NCBI GenBank assembly: GCA_018268955.1
Contig: JAFDVO010000003.1
Span: 212 to 64,211 of the forward strand
Direction of reading: 5' to 3'
DNA: 64,000 bases
From: Acidobacteriota bacterium
Lineage (GTDB): Bacteria; Acidobacteriota; Vicinamibacteria; Vicinamibacterales; CAVVIG01
Shown here: positions 27,438-32,760 of the stretch, in pieces
Layout of the letters: each line of letters begins with the position of its first letter
Position numbering within the stretch: the first letter of the stretch is position 1
The notes under the pieces: generated by a model
The model's input: only the letters and a program-made list of their open reading frames with translations
What the model was told of the DNA's origin: nothing
Databases searched by the model: none
Translations under genes and position numbers: made by a program

Positions 27438-29567
27438 GTGACGCGTACGACGATCGCGCTGCTGCTCACGCTCGGCGCGTGCGCCTGCGCCAGCGCGCCC
27501 CCTGCACCCGCCAAGCCACCCGAACCCACGTTCGAACAGAAGATGTCGTGGATCCTCAGGCTCGAGGATTCGCGGACGTTGCGCGATCCGGTTCCCGACA
27601 TCCCGCCGCCCGCGCCGACGCCGGCGTCGGGCCGGGGCCGGCCGGTCGTTGCGCCGACGCCACCGCCCGTTCCCGATCTCACGCGGCTGCTCCGCGACGG
27701 AGAGGCGCGCGTCCGTCGGCGCGCCGCACTGGCCATCGGCCGCAGCGGGGTCGCTGAGGGCGTGGCGCCATTGCTGCCGGTCCTCGCCTCCGACGCCGAC
27801 CCGGAGGTCAGGCAGATGGCGGCGTTCGCGCTCGGGCTCATCGGCGATCGAGGCGCGCTCGACGCGCTGACAGCGGCGCTCGCCGATCCGGCGCCCGTCG
27901 TTCGCGGCAGTGCCGCCGAGGCGCTCGGGACGATCGGCGATGCGACCGCCGCCCCGGCCATCGCCAAGGTGGCGACCGATGTCCTCGCGAGCGGTGCGTT
28001 GGCGTCCGTGCCGCCCGAAGACGGAGATGGCGCGCGCGACACGCCGACGGCGGCCTTCAAGCTTGCGGTCTTCTCCCTGACGAAGCTGAAGGCGTACGAG
28101 GCGCTCGCGGGCGCCGTGCTCGATGGTAGTGGACAGCCGCGCACGACATGGTGGCCCGTCGCCTTCGCACTGCAGCGGCTCGAGGACCAGCGTGCGCTGC
28201 CGGCGCTGCTGGCGCTTGCGAAAGACCCGCAGCCTTACACGCGCGCCTTTGCGGCCAAGGGGCTCGGCGCGATGAAGGACCCACGCGCGGGAGCGGCGCT
28301 GCTGCCGCTGGTAGCGGATGCCAATCGGTCTGTCGCGATCGACGCGATCCGATCGCTGGCGCGACTGGGCGAGCGTCAGGCTGGCGCCGCGCTGATGAAG
28401 CTGGTGCAGAACGCGAAGACCGAGCCGCACCTGCGGCTCGAAGCCGTGACCGCACTCGGCTCGATCCACGTGGACGGTGTATCGGACACGCTCATCGACG
28501 TGCTGGGCGATCCCAATCCCCCGGTGCGCGCCGCGGCCGTGCGCGCCATGGCGCAGAACGATCCGGAGGGATTCGTCACCGTGCTGTCGGGCCTGGATCC
28601 CGATCAGCACTGGAGTGTCCGCGCCGCCTTGGCCACCGCGCTCGGTGGGTTGACGCCCGAAGCCGGCCTGCCTCGCCTTCGGAGCATGCTCGGCGACGCC
28701 GAGCCGAAGGTCATCCCTGCCGTGCTCGCGGCCATCGCACGGCTGCGTCCGCCAGACGCCGGAGGGATCCTGATCGATCACCTGAAGTCGTCGGATGTGG
28801 TCATCCGGAAGGCCGCTGCAGAAGGGATCGCCGCGGTGAAGCCACCCGACGGTCCGGCCGCACTCATCGATGCGTACCAGCGGAGCCTCGGCGACACCAC
28901 CTATCTTGCGCGTGCCGCCGTACTCGGCGCCCTCGCGGCGTACGGCCGCGAGACGGCGACGCCGCTCCTGACCGATGCCCTGAAGGACAAGGAGTGGGCC
29001 GTCCGGTATCGGGCTGCTGCGCTCCTCGCGGAACTGGACACCGCGTCTGCGGCTCGGGCGGACATGCGGCCTGTCCCCACGGGACAGCCGGACGCGTGGT
29101 ACTCACGTCCAGCCCTCGTGGCACCGCCGGTGTCGACCCACGTGTACCTGGACACGGATCGCGGAACCATCCAGATTGAGCTCGCGGTGCTGGATGCCCC
29201 GATCACGGTGGACACGTTCGTGAGGCTTGCGCGCGGTGGGTTCTTCGACGGCGTGCCGTTTCACCGCGTGGTGCCGGACTTCGTCATCCAGGGCGGCGAT
29301 CCGCGCGGAGATGGCGAGGGCGGGCCCGGATTCACGATTCGGGACGAAATCAATCAACTGCCGTACCTGCGTGGCACGGTCGGCATGGCGCTGGACTGGG
29401 CGGATACGGGCGGAAGCCAGTTCTTCATCACGCACTCGCCACAGCCGCATCTGGATGGACGCTACACGGTGTTCGGGCGCGTGATCTCCGGCATGGAGGT
29501 GGTGGATGCGATCGAGCAGTGGGACGTGATCCGCCGCGTGCGCGTCTGGGATGGCACCACCGACTGA
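27438..29567 (+). CDS. HEAT-repeat lipoprotein fused to a cyclophilin-type peptidyl-prolyl isomerase
   Basis: 709 residues. The N terminus has a lipoprotein signal with LTLGAC (lipid cysteine about residue 15), then a Pro-rich linker. About twelve HEAT-like units follow (about 70–530: [39 protein letters not shown]). A cyclophilin domain ends the protein (about 560–705), with catalytic Arg in [17 protein letters not shown], plus [16 protein letters not shown] and [14 protein letters not shown]. It probably acts as a membrane-anchored periplasmic folding factor with a helical-repeat substrate arm. The GTG start has no visible Shine–Dalgarno. A bidirectional terminator follows at 29617. Confidence 0.88.
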
Positions 29568-29616: not shown

Positions 29617-29646
29617 CAAAAAAGGGGGCGACATCGCCCCCTTTTT
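29617..29646. terminator. Bidirectional intrinsic terminator
   Basis: GGGGGCG-ACAT-CGCCCCC flanked by an A tract on the left and a T tract on the right, so it works on both strands. On the plus strand it ends the HEAT–cyclophilin gene (stop 29567). On the minus strand it ends the transcript of the 17-codon lysine-rich gene (stop codon from 29672 to 29670). Confidence 0.9.
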
Positions 29647-29669
29647 CATTCTTCCCGGATCGGAAGCAA

Positions 29670-29723
29670 CTAGCGCTTCTTCGCCGCCTTCTTCTTCGCG
29701 CCCTTGGCTGCCTTCTTCGCCAT
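29670..29723 (-). CDS. 17-residue Lys/Ala-rich peptide
   Basis: The minus strand encodes MAKKAAKGAKKKAAKKR followed by TAG. An in-frame TAA two codons before the ATG shows it is not the tail of a longer frame. AAGG lies about 4 nt before the ATG, inside an unusual G-rich leader. A TTGACA–18 nt–TAATCT promoter lies about 210 nt upstream on the same strand, and an intrinsic terminator lies 24 nt downstream. The sequence resembles the lysine/alanine tails of histone H1-like or ribosome-associated proteins, so nucleic-acid binding is plausible. It could also be part of a small regulatory RNA. Confidence 0.55.
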   Translation of the reverse strand: MAKKAAKGAKKKAAKKR

Positions 29724-29876
29724 GATGCCTTATCCCCCCCTTCATCCGGGTGTGTCTTGGCGCGGGCAACCCAGGCGCCGATCCGTGGCGGCCGTCTGGC
29801 TCGCTCACTCGACCCCCGCTGCCCGCCGCCGCGTGGCACCTTCCGCGCCGCTCCTGATGGTCCCCGGGGCGGAAGT

Positions 29877-29899
29877 GTGAGGTCGAAAGTCAACCTCAC
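29877..29899. repeat. Inverted repeat in the leader of the tiny lysine-rich gene
   Basis: GTGAGGT and ACCTCAC form perfect 7-bp arms separated by 9 nt. The repeat lies inside the predicted 5' leader (about 29724–29931) of the 17-codon minus-strand gene. It could be an RNA hairpin or a protein-binding site. The rest of the 29724–30008 gap shows no gene. Confidence 0.5.
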
Positions 29900-29937
29900 T
29901 AGGGGTGGCTTATGCCGTCCACCCTCATACCAGATGT

Positions 29938-29967
29938 AGATTATGGATGGGAAAAACGAGCTGTCAA
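29938..29967 (-). promoter_or_regulatory. Sigma70-type promoter for the tiny lysine-rich gene
   Basis: On the minus strand, TTGACA (29967–29962) and TAATCT (29943–29938) are separated by 18 nt. The surrounding DNA is AT-rich against a GC-rich genome. Transcription would start near 29931, giving a leader of about 207 nt before the ATG at 29723. Confidence 0.6.
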
Positions 29968-30008
29968 GCACAAAGCAGATGTTTTTGTCAAAAAAATCTC
30001 TTCGGTGA

Positions 30009-32760
<2,752 letters not shown>

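Follow-up and report, generated by a model that had tools for sequence, protein, structure and literature searches.

The window analyzed here, a 64,000-nt stretch of Acidobacteriota DNA, carries on its minus strand (29617-29967) what we consider to be an uncalled small-protein gene present throughout the order Vicinamibacterales (group 6 of the Acidobacteriota). We give a probability of around 0.7 to this reading, which draws on sequence comparisons and in which the gene would be transcribed alone, from a strong promoter, as a structured mRNA of about 315 nt, and its product would be an abundant polycation. The frame encodes MAKKAAKGAKKKAAKKR, a peptide of 17 residues. Most families outside that of the window encode two such peptides, A and B, on one transcript; the peptide of the window is B. 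The original prediction was that a short K/A peptide, missed by gene calling, has a transcription unit of its own, and the promoter, leader, frame, and terminator are indeed all present. The unit is not a product of chance, since its full-length fold (-155.5 kcal/mol) is 4.8 sd better than those of shuffled sequences (-127.1, sd 5.9) and it recurs in other genera at 67-80% DNA identity.

Promoter, terminator, and ribosome-binding site

The features of the unit and its neighbors are the following, with the evidence for each in brackets:

27438-29567, plus strand: gene of a HEAT-repeat and cyclophilin-type peptidyl-prolyl isomerase, convergent synteny marker (gene-context comparison)
29618-29646, minus strand: intrinsic terminator, probably common to the convergent gene (sequence, fold, family conservation)
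29670-29723, minus strand: coding frame of MAKKAAKGAKKKAAKKR, peptide B (sequence, comparative coding tests)
29732-29743, minus strand: extended ribosome-binding site GAAGGGGGGGAU (precedes peptide B throughout the order)
29759-29830, minus strand: long hairpin of leader B, in relatives GGUG..UGCCAGGCGGCA..CCAC (consensus fold and flank covariation)
29851-29860, minus strand: possible remnant of the lost A ribosome-binding site, CCATCAGGAG (matches CCCCCCATCAGGAGAGAACA-ATGGCG of A elsewhere)
29877-29899, minus strand: second leader hairpin, GUGAGGUUGA/UCGACCUCAC (fold)
29903-29924, minus strand: 5' hairpin GGGUGG/CCACCC (pairing tests in two-peptide relatives)
29938-29967, minus strand: promoter TTGACA-18-TAATCT, followed by the conserved ACATCTKGTATGAG around the predicted start at about 29931 (sequence and 56-unit alignment)
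29968-29996, minus strand: upstream promoter element, in which a T-tract leads into TTGACA (29991-29986) and TTTGTGC (29974-29968) abuts the -35 box (131 units)
30009-31259, minus strand: upstream neighbor, a TPR protein gene on the same strand as the unit (gene-context comparison)

The promoter had been described as TTGACA-18-TAATCT, and we find it on the minus strand just past the TPR gene, with the -35 box at 29967-29962 and, after an 18-nt spacer, the -10 box at 29943-29938. It can equally be read as TTGACA-16-CATAAT, a register that matches 11 of the 12 consensus positions and for which shuffled sequences yield 0.2 sites. Among the 56 aligned units, the TTGAC and AATCTA columns are invariant. 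Conservation extends upstream, reaching 77-90% per position in the T-tract and 87-99% in TTTGTGC across 131 units. The predicted transcript of about 315 nt starts with a leader of about 207 nt. One genus (g40 of family f14; L148, L151, L155, L156) has a second copy of the promoter and 5' leader directly before a gene that we take to be ftsZ, where the FtsZ start stands in place of the peptide frame. This copy is consistent with a strong, growth-linked promoter.

At the other end, the proposed intrinsic terminator is evident in both sequence and fold as GGGGGCG-AUGU-CGCCCCC followed by T6 (29641-29618), and its stem and T-run are kept in the family of the window. The terminator scan made no call there, probably because the stem runs on through A and U runs. 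The region 29618-29646, a nearly perfect palindrome, has T-runs on either strand; the peptide unit and the convergent cyclophilin gene probably share it as terminator.

The 17-codon frame extends, as first described, from ATG at 29723 to TAG at 29670, with an in-frame TAA just upstream at 29732-29730. The AAGG initially taken as its ribosome-binding site has to be replaced by GAAGGGGGGGAU (29743-29732), farther from the ATG, which is the one kept in relatives. We read it as a near-complement of the 16S 3' end, and its GGGGGG is invariant in the family of the window.

Distribution of the unit and evolution of its peptides

Of 60 relatives at the genus, family, and order levels, 57 gave a match to the unit in a DNA search. 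We then used an 83-nt model, covering the promoter and the 5' hairpin and built on 56 units, which has matches in 134 of the 193 genomes of the class. All but one of these (133) are in the order of the window, the last being a weak match in another order, and the unit is normally single per genome. When 247 genomes spread over the phylum were searched, the 23 matches all fell within Vicinamibacterales, and the other classes gave none. A pattern for the peptide gene that is independent of the promoter agrees, being found in 18 of 24 members of the order and in none of the 223 other genomes. Judging from these searches, the unit is kept in nearly all members of Vicinamibacterales.

The weak match (genome G090; L169 / L270) proves real on inspection of its sequence. 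It is a diverged single-peptide version that combines MAKKKAAAKKKATKVTKKKAAKKK and a ribosome-binding site with a terminator and a promoter-like TTGACA-17-TATGCT-ACATCT. The cyclophilin orthologue lies on the same contig, convergent and about 1 kb away. Conversely, five genomes of family f8 (genera g34, g80, and g81) have the cyclophilin gene and lack the unit beside it; there, the unit is either not strictly essential or has moved. Five other genomes of the order without a match to the model have no clear cyclophilin orthologue either, and an assembly gap could account for the missing unit. The sources of the contigs suggest that Vicinamibacterales are widespread in soil and groundwater, and almost all of them carry this gene, which escapes gene callers and homology searches, being too short and of too low complexity. 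A frame of 16 codons can conceal a sequence strictly conserved across an order.

Among the 194 frames collected, 189 start with MAKK and 191 end with KKR or KKK, at lengths between 14 and about 60 residues. The end is found by translating onward from the start, and its constancy over these lengths means that length changes keep the frame. The composition (K 49%, A 28%, R 5%) is that of a K/A-rich, low-complexity polycation in the manner of H1-like proteins. The interior is of low complexity, with K, A, G, and T interchanged, and the peptide is presumably disordered.

Peptide A was found in 86 of 131 units, B in 108, and both in 66. A lies about 120 nt after the -35 box, behind AGGAGGAAGA, and B roughly 100-250 nt beyond A, behind GAAGGGGGGGAU, usually with a terminator between the two. 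Comparison of A with B within single genomes gives 151 synonymous and 38 non-synonymous codon differences. The two peptides are identical in 18 genomes, where the genes differ at 3-9 nt, all silent, including swaps of AGT for TCG at serine and of CGG for AGA at arginine. Within a genome the mean edit distance between A and B is 3.1, against 6.6 (sd 0.26) when partners are swapped between genomes. Hence, A and B have evolved in concert, either by selection or by gene conversion long ago, which makes them a clear case of co-evolution within genomes of two peptides on one transcript.

The original prediction had suggested looking for conserved K/A-rich frames between the same neighbors. This search was fruitful: about 190 frames have the form MAKK...KKR, the downstream gene is the convergent HEAT/cyclophilin gene in 121 of 131 units, and paired genes have diverged at synonymous sites only. 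By every comparative test available, the frame is under selection at the protein level and the peptide is predicted to be translated. An accidental K/A frame in a non-coding transcript, of the kind that purine-rich sequence of high G+C can yield, is contradicted by the fixed start and end over varied lengths, the silent divergence between A and B, and the two independent ribosome-binding sites, and we regard it as the least credible of the explanations.

By comparison of families, the ancestral unit would have encoded two peptides, with the family of the window losing A and keeping B. Nearly every member of this family lacks A. B is the near-invariant MAKKAKGGKKKAGKKR, of which the peptide of the window is a variant, and its frame hardly varies across many genera even at synonymous sites, which indicates an added constraint on the RNA. 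It is weakly possible that CCATCAGGAG is a leftover of the A ribosome-binding site, given one short match to the CCCCCCATCAGGAGAGAACA-ATGGCG of other families. Family f8 has a single, longer frame of 35-60 residues.

Structure of the leader RNA

The leader of the window has at least three hairpins. It had been described with a 7-bp inverted repeat; the leader stands, and the repeat is in fact a 10-bp hairpin (29899-29877) with a further hairpin (29924-29903) on its 5' side. Equivalents of the former, different in sequence, are found in other members of the family, and the GGGUGG/CCACCC stem of the latter varies in step across the order. The ATG of a conserved GTATGAG was considered as the start of a leaderless mini-ORF and rejected, since some families have ATG-TAG at this place and the hairpin explains the conservation.

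In two-peptide units, a pseudoknot forms between the loop of the 5' hairpin (GCUCAGC) and a GCUGAGC that lies a short way upstream of the A Shine-Dalgarno sequence. Among 26 sequences, 82.8% of the cells are paired; sliding the partner by 1-3 columns lowers this to 28-45%, and the covariation score was equalled in 1 of 500 shuffles. Loops of 83 units score 16.7 with their own partner and 15.16 (sd 0.22) with swapped ones, with a maximum of 15.7 in 200 swaps. In the family of the window, the pseudoknot has no evident downstream arm. The long hairpin of leader B has a core of UGCC-N4-GGCA in 59 of 108 leaders, with a loop that is mostly AGGC and once GAAA. Its flanks co-vary (9.82 with their own partner, 8.91 with swapped ones, sd 0.29, none of 500 swaps reaching the observed value). 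RNAalifold gave zero consensus pairs on the alignment of the promoter and hairpin. Hence, the search model uses sequence only, and pairing was judged by the controls with swapped and slid partners, the specific tests on which our account of the structure rests.

In two-peptide units such as L022, L019, and L044, the segment immediately behind the A stop (ACCGGUUCC) has its complement in the A leader, as in CCGGUUG/CAACCGG. These segments may form a long-range helix that encloses frame A and competes with the A terminator.

Possible functions and similar frames elsewhere

In the mechanism we propose, the gene would be transcribed alone from a strong promoter of the sigma-70 type, into a structured mRNA with a terminator of its own. 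A high output is suggested by the consensus promoter, the conserved leaders, and the presence on each transcript of two ribosome-binding sites. The peptide, about half lysine, with fixed ends and variable length, would act as an abundant polycation on nucleic acid, in the nucleoid or on ribosomal RNA, or alternatively on another polyanion such as polyphosphate. More tentatively, the pseudoknot by the A start and the hairpin leader of B might tune translation, possibly through feedback by the peptide itself. Non-specific binding of nucleic acid or another polyanion, to which we give slightly less than even odds, is suggested by the composition, the fixed ends, the variable low-complexity interior, the strong expression signals, and the doubled coding. 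AlgP, an H1-like protein of Pseudomonas, is linked to the spacing of polyphosphate granules (PMC9239181), which makes polyphosphate a possible partner of the peptide.

The kind of gene is known, as a K/A-rich H1-like polycation and as a small-protein mRNA with a structured leader; its ultra-short, doubled, pseudoknotted, order-wide form is new. We found no prior description in the literature on the peptide, on K-rich small proteins, or on RNA motifs of Acidobacteria. The H1-like proteins (HC2 of Chlamydia, those of Bordetella and Burkholderia, AlgP of Pseudomonas) are likewise K/A-rich, low-complexity, and polycationic, and the longest members here (48-60 residues) resemble a short H1-like tail. 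However, most peptides here are far shorter, with 14-20 residues, and two mini-peptides come from one structured transcript. The longest member scores 13.7 bits against the Pfam model of HC2 (PF07382, cut-off 40), the best similarity in Pfam and not significant (E 0.068), and 12.6 bits against NCBIfam NF038053 (cut-off 80). Riboswitch-like or ribosomal-protein leaders share the covarying H-type pseudoknot just before the Shine-Dalgarno sequence, whereas here only a K/A peptide is controlled and there is no Rfam match. The Rfam searches, at gathering and relaxed thresholds, gave none in the window and relatives, those at the gathering score covering the window and 15 relatives.

The peptide could instead belong to the ribosome as a dedicated component, or bind to it as a factor, with bTHX or eL41 as functional analogues. 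These are tiny basic ribosomal proteins, alike in size and charge, with defined sequences and a defined site. A very short, lysine-rich product, a strong promoter of the growth type, and occurrence once per genome across the order fit this explanation, and circumstantially so do similar frames beside typA, serS-secA, and diphthine synthase genes in unrelated phyla. We nevertheless think it unlikely, as the fourfold range of lengths and the interchangeable, low-complexity interior are not what a fit to a single rRNA pocket would lead one to expect. Furthermore, Pfam and NCBIfam scans revealed no family match for the members of 29-60 residues, and in these longer members no bTHX or eL41 signature.

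The original prediction had offered a regulatory RNA as its alternative, and a transcript that is primarily regulatory, with the peptide as secondary product, would resemble dual-function small RNAs such as SgrS/SgrT, SR1/SR1P, and RNAIII/delta-toxin. The unit shares with them a short, independently transcribed, structured RNA with its own promoter, a tiny ORF, and an intrinsic terminator. Beyond the frame, conserved structure is extensive and covaries; this and the frozen synonymous sites in the family of the window also speak for this explanation. The conserved, covarying leader makes the alternative partly right. Against a primarily regulatory RNA, selection clearly acts on the amino acids. 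In addition, the ORF is often doubled, and leader B, or even A with its leader, is lost in whole families, while almost every unit keeps at least one K/A peptide. Hence, we consider it improbable that regulation is the primary function. A leader peptide or attenuator that senses lysine or translation and controls a downstream gene could account for the runs of lysine codons directly before the terminator, but no co-directional regulated gene was found beyond it: the convergent orientation of the next gene in 121 of 131 units leaves nothing to attenuate and virtually excludes such a role.

We thus favor a small-protein gene with an abundant polycationic product, a candidate minimal polycation of the nucleoid or ribosome with a pseudoknotted control element. 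A bolder and distinctly doubtful extension is that of a genetically encoded polyamine, in which tandem ultra-short polycations would be abundant core constituents of the nucleoid or of the translation machinery across the whole order, the pseudoknotted leader would sense the polycation (the peptide or polyamine/Mg2+), and Patescibacteria, DPANN archaea, and other phyla would have made independent inventions of the same kind. If true, the pseudoknotted leader would set the level of encoded polyamine-like peptides.

Frames of the form MAKK...KKR, with 10-20 residues and behind AGGAGG, are also found in Patescibacteria, DPANN archaea, FCPU426, Elusimicrobia, Saganbacteria, and Planctomycetes (L173, L177, L182, L183, L184, L190, L197, L202, L203, L220, L225, L229, L233, L241, L243). 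Their presence in unrelated phyla suggests that annotation generally misses such proteins. Some local contexts recur, with neighbors whose names we assigned by eye: the frame presumably follows typA in two Patescibacteria, lies in the gap between serS and secA in Levyibacteriota, and stands beside a diphthine synthase-like gene in two archaea. These non-acidobacterial frames look like repeated independent inventions, not one family. They are sporadic in their classes, with 4 of 192 genomes in that of G414 and 2 of 87 in that of G418, and yet occur in 3 of the 4 genomes of one patescibacterial order.
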